From positions 1 to 64,000 of the forward strand of contig NZ_FMBL01000001.1 in the NCBI RefSeq assembly GCF_900094885.1: DNA of 64,000 bases. Reading direction: 5' to 3'. Below are positions 41,172 to 46,753 of this stretch, one piece after another. The notes under the pieces are model-generated. The model searched no databases. It was not told where the DNA came from and saw nothing but the letters and a program-made list of their open reading frames with translations. Source of the stretch: Bifidobacterium commune. GTDB lineage: Bacteria; Actinomycetota; Actinomycetes; Actinomycetales; Bifidobacteriaceae. Every line of letters begins with the position of its first letter. Position 1 is the stretch's first letter. The translations under genes were made by a program, and so were the position numbers.

Positions 41172-41303
41172 GTTATTTCAGCCGGTGTCTTCTTCGGTCA
41201 TCGTTGCCCGTTATTTGATTACTGTCCACTTACTTGGCCCATGGTGCCGAGTCTTTGAATGGACATGGACGGCTCGAGTCTTCCGACCTCGACACGCTTC
41301 AAA

Positions 41304-41332
41304 TGTGGATAAATAGAGCGTTCGACCACAGT
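41304..41332 (+). promoter_or_regulatory. tadZABC promoter with 14-bp element shared with flp
   Basis: An extended -10 (TGTGGATAAA, 41304-41313) is followed after 5 nt by CGTTCGACCACAGT (41319-41332). The identical 14-mer follows a similar -10 upstream of flp at 45108-45121. This places the transcript start inside or just before the repeat and argues that tadZ begins downstream of it. Confidence 0.55.
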
Positions 41333-41368
41333 ACCCGTTTTTCCTTGCTTATCAAGAGCGGAGATGGG

Positions 41369-42703
41369 TTGAATGGTTGTATGAAAAATACGTTACCGAT
41401 GGCAATGAGTCGGGACTTTGATGGTCCTTTTGCGTGGCACAAGCGGGTGCTGTTGCCTGATGAGGTTCGCGGCAAACCTGTCCGAAGACCGAATTCGGTG
41501 CAACTGCTGCAACCTGCCCGGTCTTTGATGCGGACAGCGCCTGCATCGACAAGCGTCATGCCTTCGCCGTACGGTTTGCAATATCCGCTGCCTGTTTCGC
41601 AGTCCCGTTCATTTGGTGGGCATATGAATGCATCCCAGCCTCGCTCGCCGGTGTCGCAGGATATGGTCATACGCCGGCCTCGCCGTGAGACCGCGGTGGT
41701 GTCGTCTGCTGCACCTCCAAAACCCAGAGATATTGCAGTAAGCCCACAACGTGATGTGGCTACTCATACAAGGAATACAGTGGGACTGACGTTCGCCAAG
41801 CGTTCGGTTCTGTATCTCTCTGCCACCGGCGGAGTCGGGCTTAGCGCCCTCTGTGCGCTGACATCTTTGACATTGCACGGCAACGGTGTGCGGACCGTTC
41901 TGGTGGATGCGGATTTTGACGCCGGAGGTCTTGACATTCTTCTCGGTCTTGAAAACGACAAAGGTCTGAGATTCGGCGAATTGAATGCGCCGCTGGGAAG
42001 GATCGACGGTGAGGTGTTGCTTCATCGCCTCCCTTCCTGGGAGGGTGTGCCTGTTTTTGCTTACGATTCTTGGAACAGCGAGATACCCGAATGGTGGCAG
42101 GTTCAGGCTGCGATAGAAGCACTCGCACAATCGGCGGATACGGTGTTGATTGATGCGGCCCATGGGTGTGTGCTGGGAATGGTTCCGCATTTACGTCTGG
42201 CGCCGGTTGTGTTGGCAGTGGAGCTGTCGGTGCTCGGGCTTGCACGTGCACGGACGTTGCTGGGCAGACTTTCGATGCCGATTGCTCAATCGTCAGCCAC
42301 TTGTGTGTGTGCCAGCTATGGCGGTTCGTTCAGCGCGCAGGACAGTTCTTCGGTGAGTTTTGGACTGGACGGTGGGGCAGCAGGGTCCTTGGATGTTCAG
42401 CACGATGGAGAACTTCTGAACCATGAAGGTATCGGAACATCTGAAACGTTGCGAAGCCGTCAACTGCTGGCAATCGTCGGCATGGAGCCGAGAAACATGT
42501 CTCGAAGGCGCGGTCTGGTGAACATCGAGGATGCCGAAACCTATCTCGACCATGAAATCATCGGTCCGCTGGCTGTTGACAATGCGAGAGCTAGCGATGC
42601 ATTGGAAGGGCTTGGGCTCAAGGTCGGCAAGACCGACCGAACGGTGCTCGGCAAGCTTGCCCGGCTCATCGCGGAACGTGGTGAAGGTGGTGAGCGGCAT
42701 TGA
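41369..42703 (+). CDS. tadZ: TadZ/CpaE-like pilus-localisation ATPase
   Basis: TadZ proteins place the Tad secretion machine in the cell. The C-terminal ~270 residues are a MinD/ParA-like fold: LYLSATGGVGLSALCALTSL (deviant Walker A, lysine missing), TVLVDADFDAGGLDILLGLE and TVLIDAAHG. The first ~140 residues are Pro/Arg/Ser-rich and variable. The start is uncertain: TTG 41369 has GGAG upstream, ATG 41381 lies 12 nt later, and an upstream TTG at 41234 would precede the probable promoter. The stop overlaps the tadA start. The degenerate Walker A matches other TadZ proteins, which often bind ATP weakly. Confidence 0.75.
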   Translation: MNGCMKNTLPMAMSRDFDGPFAWHKRVLLPDEVRGKPVRRPNSVQLLQPARSLMRTAPASTSVMPSPYGLQYPLPVSQSRSFGGHMNASQPRSPVSQDMVIRRPRRETAVVSSAAPPKPRDIAVSPQRDVATHTRNTVGLTFAKRSVLYLSATGGVGLSALCALTSLTLHGNGVRTVLVDADFDAGGLDILLGLENDKGLRFGELNAPLGRIDGEVLLHRLPSWEGVPVFAYDSWNSEIPEWWQVQAAIEALAQSADTVLIDAAHGCVLGMVPHLRLAPVVLAVELSVLGLARARTLLGRLSMPIAQSSATCVCASYGGSFSAQDSSSVSFGLDGGAAGSLDVQHDGELLNHEGIGTSETLRSRQLLAIVGMEPRNMSRRRGLVNIEDAETYLDHEIIGPLAVDNARASDALEGLGLKVGKTDRTVLGKLARLIAERGEGGERH

Positions 42704-43692
42704 TGTTTGGACCTTTGGAAGAGCTTAGTCATCAGTCGGGGCTGACGGATATTGCGGTGACCTGCGAGGGGCGTGTATGGATTGATTGCGGGCGTGGAAT
42801 GGCTGAATACCATCCCGCAGTTCCGTTCCGTTCGCCTCAGGTCGTACGTGAATACGCGACCCAGTTATGCGCTCAGCTGGGCAAAAGACTTGATGACGCA
42901 TGCCCGATTGCGGACGCGTCAAGCGTGGAGGGTATCCGCGTTCATGCCGTGATTGCACCGCTCGTACCCACTGGTGCCAGCATCTCGATACGGTTCCCAA
43001 GTCTTGTGATGCCTTGTCTTGCTGATTTGGGAACGCAGGGGTTATTTCCGGCTCCCTGGTTTCCGTTGCTGTGCGCGCTGGTCAGTCGACATGCGACGAT
43101 TCTCATCACTGGCAACACGGGGGCAGGCAAGACCACTTTGCTCAAAGCTCTGCTGTCTCAGGCCGACCCTACGGAACGCGTCGTCAGCGTTGAGGAGGTT
43201 CGAGAACTGGGAATGCTCGGACGCGGTAATCATGTTGCTCTCGTGGCGCGGGAGGCCAATGTTGAGGGTGCCGGTGCCATAGGACTGCCGGACTTGGTCA
43301 AAGCGACGTTGCGTATGCGGCCCGACCGCATCATTTTGGGGGAATGCCGCGGTGAGGAGATCGCTGATCTCCTGCGTGCTTTCAACTCCGGCCATCACGG
43401 GGGAATGGCCACCCTGCATGCCGATGGCGTTGATCGTGTGCCTTCTCGATTGGTTTCACTGGGGTTGTTGGCGGGGCTGAATCGCGAGGCGCTGACGATG
43501 TTGGCGGCCGGCGCGTTCGATGTAGTGCTGCACTTGGAACGGCGTCATGGTAAACGACGGATTGTTGAGATAGGGCGGCTGACGGCTGATCCCGAACACT
43601 TTTCCGGTGAGTCGGTGGCTACATGGGACGGGACCGGGCTGCCTGTTCCTGCGCCGGCATGGGTTCCGTTCGTGAGCCGGTGGATGGAGTAA
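42703..43692 (+). CDS. tadA: TadA/CpaF-type secretion ATPase
   Basis: This hexameric cytoplasmic ATPase drives Tad pilus assembly. Walker A GNTGAGKTT is at residues ~137-145. The Asp-box VSVEEVREL, the Walker B region RMRPDRIILGECRGEE and the His-box GHHGGMATLHADG are conserved. At about 329 residues it is shorter than full-length CpaF because the N-terminal domain is compact (ITDIAVTCEGRVW-like block at the start). ATG overlaps the tadZ stop (TGATG), so the two are coupled. It belongs to the tadZABC transcript. Confidence 0.93.
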   Translation: MFGPLEELSHQSGLTDIAVTCEGRVWIDCGRGMAEYHPAVPFRSPQVVREYATQLCAQLGKRLDDACPIADASSVEGIRVHAVIAPLVPTGASISIRFPSLVMPCLADLGTQGLFPAPWFPLLCALVSRHATILITGNTGAGKTTLLKALLSQADPTERVVSVEEVRELGMLGRGNHVALVAREANVEGAGAIGLPDLVKATLRMRPDRIILGECRGEEIADLLRAFNSGHHGGMATLHADGVDRVPSRLVSLGLLAGLNREALTMLAAGAFDVVLHLERRHGKRRIVEIGRLTADPEHFSGESVATWDGTGLPVPAPAWVPFVSRWME

Positions 43693-43695
43693 TAC

Positions 43696-44388
43696 ATGGG
43701 ATGGTTGCCGCTGCTGTCTTCGCTGTTTGCCGGCTTGACCGTTATCCTGTTCGGCTGGCACAGCAAAGCCGCGCTGTTAGAGCTTCCCGAAGGCAAGGTC
43801 CATGCAACCGTTTTGAAACCCAAGCGAACTATCGGCATCCTTTCGGTTATCGACTCTCTGCGGGCTCATGTGAAGGCAGGTGGATCGTTGGAGGAGGCGT
43901 TCGCCGATCAGACGGACGGCGAACCGATTGCCCTCACTCCCTGTATGCCGAATCGTGAGCAATTGCAGGACATGATGCGCACTCGTCTCGATGCAAAGGA
44001 GACATGTGAGCAAGCCGATCAAGCGGCAGCTGAACTTGACCTGGCATGCCGGTTAATTGGTGTGCTCGGTTGTGAGGCTACCCATTGCCTCGATGCGGTG
44101 GCCTCGTCCTACCGGCGCAATCGCATGCTCAAAACGTTGAAAGACAGTGCCTTTACCGTGCCTAAATCCACCGTGAAACTTCTTTCCCTGTTGCCGCTAG
44201 CCACACTCGTTTTGGGTGAGCTGGTGAGTGCTTCGCCGATTGCATTTCTTGTTGGCAAGACGGCAGGGCATGTTTGCTTGGCGCTGGGAATGGGATGCTA
44301 CATGCTGGGAATGCTATGGATGCGAACGCTGATGGATGGCGTTGCGGCAGCCGGTCAAGGATATGGCGACTCGGGGGGAAGCGGATGA
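43696..44388 (+). CDS. tadB: TadB-like inner-membrane platform protein
   Basis: The 230-residue protein has an N-terminal membrane helix (LLSSLFAGLTVILFGW), a cytoplasmic T2SF domain core (SVIDSLRAHVKAGGSLEEAF, SSYRRNRMLKTLKDSAF) and two C-terminal helices (LLSLLPLATLVLGEL, LALGMGCYMLGMLW). TadB and TadC form the platform on which TadA acts. Its start lies 3 bp after the tadA stop and its own stop overlaps the tadC start (ATGA), so translation is coupled through the operon. Confidence 0.88.
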   Translation: MGWLPLLSSLFAGLTVILFGWHSKAALLELPEGKVHATVLKPKRTIGILSVIDSLRAHVKAGGSLEEAFADQTDGEPIALTPCMPNREQLQDMMRTRLDAKETCEQADQAAAELDLACRLIGVLGCEATHCLDAVASSYRRNRMLKTLKDSAFTVPKSTVKLLSLLPLATLVLGELVSASPIAFLVGKTAGHVCLALGMGCYMLGMLWMRTLMDGVAAAGQGYGDSGGSG

Positions 44389-45032
44389 GCGCATGGATTT
44401 CGGGATGTCTGGTGATGGTTGCCGCACTGGTTTGGTTTCTGCCCGTTGAATCTTCGGCTCGACGGTTGCATGCGACGAGTTCGTCATTCGAGGCCAAACC
44501 ATCACTTACGGTCATTCTGGAAATGCTGGCTGTAGCTATGCGTGAAGGTTCGTCGATTCCATACGCGCTTGAGGTCATCGGTTCGATTGTCGGTGAATCG
44601 CTTGGTGCGGGCTTGTGCAAAGCCGCAAATTCGCTGATGCAGGGCTACTCCTGGCAAGATGCATGGTTGGCTGCTTCGCTTGCTTGTCAACAACAGGAAG
44701 GGTGCGAGAATCTGTCGAATGCGATGAAGCATTCCGGTAAATCAACTTCTAAATCGCGCGATGGCAATGATTGTGTGTCCAACGTTCCCGTCGTGGATGA
44801 GGGGGCGTTGGCAATTATCCGTGATGCGCTGGAACCCTCTTGGTCTCGTGGTGTTTCGCCTGTCGGGCCGCTAGACAGTGCGGTGGAACAAATGGATGCG
44901 CATTCGCGTGCTTCGATCGAGCAATCGGCGCAACGACTGTCGGTAAAACTGCTGCTGCCGACTGGTCTTTGTTTTTTGCCCGCTTTCATACTGATAGGCG
45001 TTATTCCAGCCATCGGCTCGTTCATGGGTTAA
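44385..45032 (+). CDS. tadC: TadC-like inner-membrane platform protein
   Basis: The 215-residue protein starts with a membrane helix (ISGCLVMVAALVWFLPV), then the T2SF-type segment EMLAVAMREGSSIPYALEVIG and C-terminal AQRLSVKLLLPTGLCFLPAFILIGVIPAI, a typical closing hairpin of the family. A polar Ser/Asp/Lys-rich insertion lies in the middle. The ATG shares bases with the tadB stop. It is the last gene of the first Tad transcript; flp follows behind its own promoter. Confidence 0.87.
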   Translation: MSAWISGCLVMVAALVWFLPVESSARRLHATSSSFEAKPSLTVILEMLAVAMREGSSIPYALEVIGSIVGESLGAGLCKAANSLMQGYSWQDAWLAASLACQQQEGCENLSNAMKHSGKSTSKSRDGNDCVSNVPVVDEGALAIIRDALEPSWSRGVSPVGPLDSAVEQMDAHSRASIEQSAQRLSVKLLLPTGLCFLPAFILIGVIPAIGSFMG

Positions 45033-45091
45033 AACGGTATGTTGATGTTCGGTGGATGACTCGGTGGGTGAAAACGACAACACGCCCGAAT

Positions 45092-45121
45092 TGTGTATAA
45101 CACCCATCGTTCGACCACAGT
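45092..45121 (+). promoter_or_regulatory. flp-tadEF promoter with the shared 14-bp element
   Basis: An extended -10 (TGTGTATAAC, 45092-45101) is followed by CGTTCGACCACAGT (45108-45121), identical to the 14-mer upstream of tadZ. The flp start codon lies 110 nt downstream. A separate pilin promoter would let flp be expressed above the assembly genes. Confidence 0.55.
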
Positions 45122-45230
45122 GGCTGAAATTTCTCGGACGAAATGCAAAACGCTGAGAGACTGAAACCATCGCAATCCAATCGTTGCGATGAAGAGCAAT
45201 CAAACAATATCAACTATCAAAGGAGCAATC

Positions 45231-45518
45231 ATGGATAAGGAACTGGCAATCGTAGAGCAAAGCAATCGTGGCGTCATCGGGCGCTTCGGCAATCGTATGG
45301 TCGAACGAGGCAGGCAGCTGAAAGGACAGGCGTGTGTGCTCGATGCCCGAGTGCGTTCAGTGCTTGAACAGCCGGATGAGGGCGCGGCCACCGCCGAGTA
45401 TGCAGTGGTCCTTGTGGCGGCCACCGGCTTCGCGGCGGTGCTGGTGGCGTTGCTTAAATCCGGCGCAATCAAGACGCTGTTGGAGGCGCTGGTCAAGAAG
45501 GCGCTCAAGGTGGTCTGA
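45231..45518 (+). CDS. flp: Flp-type pilin (DUF4244-like)
   Basis: This is the likely major pilin subunit. Residues ~48-57 read PDEGAATAEY, a prepilin site with cleavage after Gly51 and Glu/Tyr at mature positions 5 and 6, the Flp hallmark. A hydrophobic helix (AVVLVAATGFAAVLVALL) follows, then a short Lys-rich tail. The leader before the cleavage site is long (51 residues). ATG 45231 has AAAGGAG at good spacing. The mature pilin would be only about 44 residues. Confidence 0.9.
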   Translation: MDKELAIVEQSNRGVIGRFGNRMVERGRQLKGQACVLDARVRSVLEQPDEGAATAEYAVVLVAATGFAAVLVALLKSGAIKTLLEALVKKALKVV

Positions 45519-45563
45519 GCCGGCCGTGGATATGAGGAATCATCTCGAAAGGAGGGTATGGAT

Positions 45564-46118
45564 ATGCCGGGTCAAAATCGTTCGTCGGCAATCACGATTC
45601 ATTCACCATTCATGTGGTTGCGGGCTTGCCGCGTGCAATATCGCCGTCATCATGGGCAAACCGTGAGTGTTGATTGCGCGAAACGTACCGAAAACTCGGA
45701 TTGCACAGGTCATGCCTCCAACACACGAGATGGTGTCGCTTTCTTGTCCCCGCGGCCAAAAAGCTGTCGGCAACACGGTCATCATGGCGGTGATGAAGGT
45801 GCGGTCACTGCGGAATTCGCGGTCGTTCTTCCCGCAGTGATGGTGATGGCCGTGTTGCTGATGATGCTGGCTCGGACGGTTACCGTCGAAATGAGCTGTC
45901 AGGATGCGGCCTCCGCTGCCGCCCGTGTTGCAGTAGTGTCGGGTGATGATGACGAAGCGCGTTCCGCGGCTGAGAATGCCGCGGGCGAAAAGGTTGATGT
46001 TTCGATCAAGCGTAGGTTCAAGCAGGTCAATGTCGTTGTCAGCTGCCGTGTAGTGCCCGATCCGCTTCATGTCCTGCCGATGGCAGTAATCGGCAAGGCG
46101 ACGGGGGTGGTCCAATGA
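45564..46118 (+). CDS. tadE: TadE-like pseudopilin
   Basis: The 184-residue protein has a prepilin-type site, DEG then AVTAEF, with cleavage after about Gly79 and Glu5-Phe6, followed by a hydrophobic helix (AVVLPAVMVMAVLLMML). The C-terminal ~70 residues are soluble (AARVAVVSGDDDEARSAAEN), as usual for TadE. The leader is very long and rich in His, Arg and Cys. AAAGGAGG lies 8 nt before ATG 45564 but only 2 nt before ATG 45558, so the former is preferred. It overlaps tadF by 4 bp. Confidence 0.88.
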   Translation: MPGQNRSSAITIHSPFMWLRACRVQYRRHHGQTVSVDCAKRTENSDCTGHASNTRDGVAFLSPRPKSCRQHGHHGGDEGAVTAEFAVVLPAVMVMAVLLMMLARTVTVEMSCQDAASAAARVAVVSGDDDEARSAAENAAGEKVDVSIKRRFKQVNVVVSCRVVPDPLHVLPMAVIGKATGVVQ

Positions 46119-46753
46119 TTAATTTCGGATGCCGTCGGCTTCTTCGTCGGTCTCCGCATTCGTGTGGCCCCGGCGCCAACTCCACAGGTTGGTTGCGGAC
46201 GCGGTATAGACAAGCGCTTTGCGTTATGAACAAGCCGATGGCAGTATTGGCTCAATACCAATTTTGGCGAACAAGTCGTTTTTGGAGCGGCTACTGCATA
46301 CCCTCTGCATCTTGCAAGGATATGTTTGGCAATGCTGATTCCAAACGATTACATTTTCCACGGTTTTCATACTCTGCGTTTTGTAAGGGTGTGCCCAGTA
46401 ATGTGGGAGGAGACTGTGATGAAGGTTCCGGCACCATAAACGGGGTAATGCTTATCGCCGTCGCGGCGGTGCTGATTTCGGCGATAGCAGCCGGCGGCAA
46501 TGTACTGCTGTGTATCTCGCAGGCTCGTTCGGCAGCGGACCAAGCGGCCATTGCCGGAGCATATTCCGCCAGTGATGGTGATTTCGATCCGTGCCTTAAA
46601 TCCCGAATCACCGCCTCCTTGAACGATGCCGCGGTGGTTAGTTGCACCGTTGTCGAGGAGGATGTCACTGTGAAAGCGGAAGTAAAAACGGCGGTGCCGT
46701 TCGTTCCGTCGGTTTCGAGGATGGCTCGTGCCGGACCGGTAGAATGTCATTGA
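46115..46753 (+). CDS. tadF: TadF/TadE-like pilus protein (Rv3654c type)
   Basis: The C-terminal part shows DEGSGTING, then a helix (GVMLIAVAAVLISAIAAGGN) and SQARSAADQAAIAGAY, the pattern of Rv3654c-like TadE relatives encoded in actinobacterial Tad clusters. Unlike flp and tadE, mature position 5 is not Glu. The first ~100 residues are an odd Arg/Trp/Cys-containing stretch, so the true start may be internal, for example at ATG 46226. The given ATG overlaps the tadE stop (ATGA), which favours coupling. Confidence 0.75.
   Translation: MINFGCRRLLRRSPHSCGPGANSTGWLRTRYRQALCVMNKPMAVLAQYQFWRTSRFWSGYCIPSASCKDMFGNADSKRLHFPRFSYSAFCKGVPSNVGGDCDEGSGTINGVMLIAVAAVLISAIAAGGNVLLCISQARSAADQAAIAGAYSASDGDFDPCLKSRITASLNDAAVVSCTVVEEDVTVKAEVKTAVPFVPSVSRMARAGPVECH

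Follow-up and report, generated by a model that had tools for sequence, protein, structure and literature searches.

A composite promoter element at Tad pilus genes marks a candidate competence regulon in Bifidobacterium

Two Tad units preceded by one core element

The 64,000-nucleotide stretch of Bifidobacterium commune DNA analysed here (the window; positions 1 to 64,000 of contig NZ_FMBL01000001.1) carries a Tad pilus locus in two units, tadZABC and flp-tadEF, each preceded by the 14-bp sequence CGTTCGACCACAGT. An initial annotation, made from the letters alone, had pointed to this identity before tadZ and before flp, and both copies were found, exact and on the plus strand (Table 1). Matches to CGTTCGACCACAGT with up to three mismatches number ten in the window against 7.6 expected, which is ordinary, and the eight others carry two or three mismatches. 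A search of the organism's 1.63-Mb genome for further copies, as the annotation had proposed, yielded five exact copies, and 29 within two mismatches compared with nine for a reversed control pattern. Single genomes of relatives contain as many as 14 exact copies of the 13-mer, with one control match over all genomes searched. Since these counts exceed the controls, unlike the ordinary three-mismatch total in the window, the exact copies are not due to chance and a two-copy coincidence was discarded. A dispersed mobile repeat was likewise discarded, given the orthologous positions of the copies in many species and their fixed distance to the predicted −10 described below. With nothing beyond the two window copies in its favour, and with near-empty reversed controls, an origin by chance or by a mobile repeat retains next to no probability. 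The core varies by species (GTTCGACCACA, CTCCGACCACA and TGGAACCACA), while ACCACA and the layout are unchanged.

Layout and phasing of a composite element

Judged from its surroundings, the 14-mer belongs to a larger, predicted promoter element of composite build, of which it forms the core. In relatives this reads ACACGCC, often a DnaA-type 9-mer, C-GTTCGACCACAG-T, a weakly conserved CCCGTTTTGGCTTG-like stretch and then the −10, and the gap between ACACGCC and GTTCGACCACAG is 12 or 22 bp, a difference of one helical turn. Composites numbered 139 in 36 of the 112 Bifidobacterium genomes, compared with three control matches. With spacings of 2–26 permitted, the distance from ACACGCC to GTTCG was 10–14 or 20–24 in 138 of the 139 and 3 in the last (the list was transcribed by hand from the composite table, whose sum it equals). 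A scan of viral contigs, which served as background only and permitted 11–24, gave 48 matches, 27 of them in the 10–14 and 20–24 classes; this is about the share of 9 in 14 permitted values and shows no spacing preference. Spacings one helical turn apart suggest two proteins that touch on one face of the DNA. Among long-spacing copies, 113 of 120 have a G directly before the box, as in the WhiA site (GACAC according to the part of PMC3781837 that was available); in short-spacing copies this base is G in 14 of 37 and A in 23 of 37, so that the constant part appears to be ACACGCC, with WhiA a possible reader of the box. In B. commune the box is ACACGCT at tadZ and ACACGCC at flp, neither of which had been recognized in the initial annotation.

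Downstream phasing was assessed in a pool of 270 cores, largely from loci that had been collected for matching the element; 157 copies with a phased box were counted (120 long- and 37 short-spacing) and 113 without one, some of them intragenic, were excluded. All 157 phased copies have a T at +53 or +54, counted from the G of GTTCGACC, compared with 20 to 102 of 157 for other neighbouring position pairs between +40 and +62. The hexamer before this T is loose (TANNNT in 37/157, nAnnnT in 112/157). Of the 157 copies, 76 have an ATG at +60 to +62: 68 of the 120 with long spacing (two control offsets gave 8 and 1) and 8 of the 37 with short spacing (0 and 2). The fixed T implies that the −10 sits downstream of the 14-mer, and mRNAs that are often leaderless are predicted, with starts about 60 bp past the element. 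The core thus ends about 36–40 bp upstream of the predicted −10, which argues for an activator-type site and not for a sigma-factor site. Unlike the leaderless tadZ transcript, the predicted flp transcript has a leader of ~60 nt with a Shine-Dalgarno sequence.

Genes under the element in B. commune

A sequence-only model built from 46 copies was used to find further sites; it includes both window copies and other Tad promoters, and matches to these arise by construction. Its E-values are rough, and the genus-wide counts used stricter filters. In the B. commune genome it gave 14 matches, 12 of which are sites before genes or a gene remnant, and the core was confirmed at all 12. These lie before flp, tadZ, a gene for a CpaB-like SAF protein, an M23 gene, a second ssb, comEA-comEC, recA, a DUF4192-like gene (below the Pfam cut-off), yraN-comM-dprA, comF, a membrane protein gene opposite a glgE-like gene (by eye) and a remnant upstream of tmk. 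Family matches were obtained for ComEA-type HHH_3, ComEC, RecA, M23, SAF, UPF0102, DprA, Mg-chelatase-type ComM, SSB and Tmk, and for ComF with TIGR00201 at E 1.9e-8, below the curated cut-off. The ssb query had two matches in this genome, with 100% and 29% identity. Hence, a common element stands upstream of genes for DNA uptake and processing: eight of the 12 cores head tadZ, flp, the SAF gene, the second ssb, comEA-comEC, recA, yraN-comM-dprA and comF.

Conservation across the genus

Gene names in relatives were assigned by eye unless profile-based. In two relatives (G004 and G118) copies or model matches precede tadZ, flp, comEA, comF, ssb, recA, yraN and the SAF gene, and in a third (G099) comEA, tadZ, flp, the SAF gene and the M23 gene, with the core mostly changed to CTCCGACCACA. 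Across the genus, the model matches 109 of 112 genomes at E≤1, and the 14 genomes with the nearest ssb have 14 to 29 matches each. In an order-wide sample of 198 genomes, ten had a match at E≤0.01: seven from the same genus, two from another genus of the family and one, weak, from elsewhere. The two from the other genus of the family (L370 and L372, in G134 and G177) are themselves weak, with E 3.0e-4 and 7.6e-3.

An independent test of the Tad promoters used a profile made from 43 non-Tad copies, with rows kept off tadA by locus and coordinate, by eye. It was run on the best 80 named tadA loci, comprising 71 from Bifidobacteriaceae and nine from outgroups, and gave 78 matches at ≥8 bits compared with none in reversed sequence (104 compared with seven at 5 bits). 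Promoter zones of tadZ and flp, which were defined after the profile matches had been seen and make up about 8% of strand-bases, contain 67 of the 78. Zone matches precede tadZ and/or flp at 40 of the 71 Bifidobacteriaceae loci (25 in both zones) and at none of the nine outgroup loci. The initial annotation had named lack of conservation in close relatives as grounds for refutation and had suggested a look at other Tad clusters; the element is conserved at orthologous genes across species, though not at every Tad locus.

The ssb promoters were surveyed at 30 loci, of which 17 were read; in the other 13 the start pattern failed. The layout lies 183–222 bp before the ATG in 15 of the 17 and is lacking at L158 and L160. 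Some match to the ssb query is present in 112/112 genomes and a strong one (E 8.1e-24 or better) in 110/112, a query to which housekeeping ssb also responds.

Further kinds of gene lie under the element in relatives. Proteins of ~320 amino acids that resemble AbiEi by eye recur there, with several per genome (L010, L012, L027, L082, L084, L090, L340, L345, L425, L430 and L433; L012 has a weak AbiEi_4 match). Small toxin-antitoxin or DUF4160-like genes, again by eye, stand directly under it at L021, L035, L076, L335, L344, L427 and L442. WXG100-like and membrane proteins that by eye resemble type VII secretion are found at L034, L036, L077, L085 and L336 (G025, G034 and G099).

A DnaA-type box in part of the promoters

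Each core in the window is preceded by a 9-mer of the form TGTG(T/G)ATAA (TGTGGATAA before tadZ and TGTGTATAA before flp), which had been taken for an extended −10 box placed at the same distance from both cores. The distances are 6 and 7 bp, and the assignment as a −10 box is very probably wrong: such a box should sit ~7–13 bp before the start, and the fixed T and the start codon, as judged from the sequence, lie ~55–70 bp further downstream. By its letters the 9-mer is a predicted DnaA-type box, with the complement TTATCCACA or TTATACACA. Its form TTATNCACA occurs 45 times in the B. commune genome compared with 13 times reversed, and clusters of the 9-mer flank the organism's own dnaA (C3 91.3–94.0 kb) and also stand before parA- and dnaB-like genes.

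A regulon driven by replication state, with DnaA on TTATCCACA as main regulator and the 14-mer as auxiliary, would account for this enrichment and clustering, for the presence of the 9-mer between the two boxes of 97 out of 120 long-spacing copies, and for a half-element, ACACGCC-N4-TGTGGATAAC without the 14-mer, that occurs upstream of dnaB in three of four genomes scanned one at a time or in a small set (B. commune, G004 and G118; DnaB identified by Pfam in B. commune and G118 and by eye in G004). Against it, no short-spacing copy has the 9-mer between the boxes (0/37; just upstream of ACACGCC the 9-mer is found in 8/37 and the shorter TCCACA in 22/37), the half-site is not among the model matches listed for G099, and TTATNCACA lies within 75 bp at just two of the 12 B. 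commune sites, tadZ and flp. The element shares TTATCCACA boxes with DnaA-regulated promoters, as before the organism's own dnaB and parA, but differs in that the core is constant and the DnaA box is missing from many copies, including ten of the 12 sites in B. commune. We regard DnaA as main regulator as improbable.

Additional DnaA-type boxes accompany the dnaB half-element at L356 (C3:251511–251604 of B. commune), L349 and L350. Three TTATCCACA boxes also stand before a B. commune gene that by eye resembles a surface or pilin precursor (L366, C3:108660–108775).

Table 1. Features of the Tad locus in the window, with predicted promoter parts.
Feature	Position	Strand	Remarks
Upstream box ACACGCT (consensus ACACGCC)	41292..41298	+	21 bp before G of GTTCGACC
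DnaA-type box TTATCCACA (predicted)	41304..41312	-	Read as an extended −10 in the initial annotation; clusters of this 9-mer also flank dnaA
Core element CGTTCGACCACAGT, tadZ copy	41319..41332	+	Exact match; model match 41292-41376, E 3.0e-13, sequence itself among the 46 model rows
Predicted −10 TTGAAT, tadZ promoter	41369..41374	+	TTCAAT/TTGAAT in many tadZ orthologues
tadZ	41381..42703	+	ATG at +61 from G of GTTCGACC, leaderless predicted; NCBIfam CpaE_hom_Actino E 3.3e-19, below curated cut-off
tadA ATPase	42700..43692	+	TIGR03819 E 9.5e-95, below curated cut-off; orthologues in 112/112 genus genomes
tadB-like open reading frame	43696..44388	+	Named by position alone; NCBIfam: no match
tadC-like open reading frame	44385..45032	+	Named by position alone; NCBIfam: no match
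Upstream box ACACGCC	45080..45086	+	22 bp before G of GTTCGACC
DnaA-type box TTATACACA (predicted)	45092..45100	-	Complement of the 9-mer before the flp core
Core element CGTTCGACCACAGT, flp copy	45108..45121	+	Exact match; model match 45080-45158, E 4.6e-14, sequence itself among the 46 model rows
Predicted −10 GAGACT, flp promoter	45157..45162	+	AAGACT, CAGACT, AGAAT in orthologues
flp pilin	45231..45518	+	By eye and position; AAAGGAG from 45219, ATG 45231; NCBIfam: no match
Two more flp-unit open reading frames, tadE/tadF-like by position	45558..46753	+	45558-46118 and 46115-46753

Rfam matches in the window comprise two tRNAs and one signal recognition particle RNA.

Discussion

We propose that this element, here termed the com-box, is probably an activator-type promoter element of Bifidobacterium and that it marks a competence regulon to which the Tad pilus belongs. 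From the established layout, phasing, conservation and gene content we infer bound proteins, activation, transcript starts and transformation as follows. A putative DNA-binding protein would occupy GTTCGACCACAG, ~48–60 bp before the start of transcripts that are often leaderless. At many promoters a second protein would sit on ACACGCC, at a distance of 12 or 22 bp on the upstream side that keeps it on the same face of the helix, and a DnaA box would often add an input; in B. commune these additions are present at tadZ and flp only. Bound in this way, the element would activate a single program that combines the Tad pilus (tadZABC and flp-tadEF) and the CpaB-like SAF protein with DNA translocation by comEA-comEC and comF and with the genes for single-strand DNA, namely the second ssb, yraN-comM-dprA and recA. 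The Tad pilus would then be the DNA-uptake pilus of a natural-transformation program. The initial annotation had proposed that pilus assembly and pilin expression are controlled together, which fits the comparative evidence, although the scope is wider than the pilus and takes in comEA-comEC, comF, recA, yraN-comM-dprA and the second ssb. A more far-reaching version, in which most Bifidobacterium would possess an unrecognised transformation program with Tad as uptake pilus, a new activator on GTTCGACCACAG and DnaA as second input at many promoters, is offered tentatively and seems to us rather doubtful.

The same shared regulator might instead serve surface life, that is adhesion, biofilm or stationary phase, with the com genes used for DNA as food or for repair and no transformation. 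The published transcriptomes cited here were available in part, and what follows refers to those parts. In stationary B. lactis A6 the tad genes are up with mucin adhesion, the tadZ and flp units rising 7–12-fold together and tadV 1.5-fold (PMC8876546), and the two units change together in published Bifidobacterium transcriptomes (PMC8876546 and PMC12436685). The tad genes are also up in stage S3 of B. longum biofilms, as is recA (PMC7917626), and down in a B. bifidum luxS mutant (PMC12436685). The terms competence and ComE do not occur in the available portions of PMC8876546 and PMC7917626, and co-regulation of com genes is thus neither supported nor excluded by these sources. The M23 gene in the regulon and the type VII secretion-like and toxin-antitoxin-like genes in relatives would also suit surface life. 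Yet comEA-comEC, comF, dprA and the second ssb all carry the core, and adhesion alone needs neither dprA nor ssb. These four are the classic late-competence set. We consider surface life without transformation unlikely.

Several observations weigh against a competence regulon. Two of the 14 model matches in B. commune are not regulon sites, one lying inside a pheT-like frame (B3/4 domain) and the other being the dnaB half-site. The full composite is present in this genome at tadZ and flp only; at the other ten the core stands by itself, the 75 bp before it containing neither ACACGCY nor TTATNCACA (there is ACGCGCC at ssb and TTTTGCACA at comF), and the model scores are weaker (E 1.6e-9 to 4.6e-3, which are rough). 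The M23 gene, the DUF4192-like gene and the membrane protein gene have no known role in DNA uptake, nor have the AbiEi-like, toxin-antitoxin-like and type VII secretion-like genes in relatives. Three of the 112 genomes lack a model match and several small genomes have one weak match, 31 of the 71 Bifidobacteriaceae Tad loci (including Gardnerella, Alloscardovia and some of the B. asteroides group) have no zone match, and one Demequina locus gave a stray profile match of 8.2 bits. No match to the prepilin peptidase family PF01478 was found in the B. commune genome, whose assembly is ~95% complete. Finally, type IVa pilus genes are described in B. pseudocatenulatum (PMC4121622, in part), and other pili could serve uptake in some species.

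As to the regulator, no dedicated one was identified, and no systematic search for it was made. In G118 the order upstream of recA is cinA, an HTH_3 gene, the element and recA (L361; CinA and HTH_3 by Pfam), and this HTH_3 gene is a possible candidate. The AbiEi-like proteins and HicB-like proteins (by eye) found under the element in relatives may bind DNA. LexA and the SOS response were also considered, with GTTCGA presumably resembling a LexA half-site and with recA and ssb in the set (recA is a member in B. commune, G004, G118 and, by eye, G018). The palindrome GAACN4GTTC was present in just one of 270 windows of 160 bp around the cores, and orthologous promoters exchange GTTCGA for CTCCGA or TGGAA with ACCACA kept. 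LexA was rejected, and control by it is very improbable.

A shared element that names a regulon provides a reporter and a bait for its regulator, and a list of co-regulated genes for transcriptomes. Work on the Tad pilus of gut colonisers has so far treated it as a colonisation factor; the element gives this pilus a testable new role and possibly links replication to DNA uptake. Bifidobacterium is hard to engineer, and the genetics of the genus would become easier if cells can be made competent. Our searches of the open-access PMC literature turned up no account of bifidobacteria undergoing natural transformation and no earlier description of the element, including in the available portions of PMC13091076 (with no occurrence of 'promoter' or 'natural transformation'), PMC2928729, PMC5815585 and PMC4121622. 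The com genes of Gardnerella are on record (PMC2928729, in part). Competence regulons with a shared box are known, and these searches yielded none from Actinomycetota that has Tad as its pilus and a composite box of activator type; competence control in this phylum is described as an open question in the part of PMC12849477 available.

The proposed regulon can be set beside several known systems. It departs from DnaA-regulated promoters, and in many short-spacing copies from WhiA sites, in the ways given above. In late competence of Streptococcus (ComX/SigX, CIN-box), a sigma-factor site stands before dispersed com, ssb, dprA, recA and pilus operons. The likeness is one short element before the same kinds of dispersed operons, and the difference is that the element here appears to be of activator type and the pilus is Tad/Flp. 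The ComK regulon of Bacillus subtilis is likewise activator-driven and covers dispersed com genes with recA and ssb, and ComK boxes are A/T-rich dyads. Closest in its pilus is the Flp-pilus-dependent transformation of Micrococcus luteus, which according to the accessible parts of the reports has no homologues of the ComK cascade and loses transformation with any tad gene except tadB (PMC4322843), and in which deletion of the SAF/CpaB gene lowers transformation 10^4-fold (PMC8467076). Because the Tad/Flp pilus serves transformation there and SAF/CpaB matters, Tad as an uptake pilus in Bifidobacterium is plausible. No regulatory cascade has been identified in M. luteus (PMC12849477, in the part available). 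The counterparts here of the tad and SAF/CpaB genes that are needed there stand under the element.

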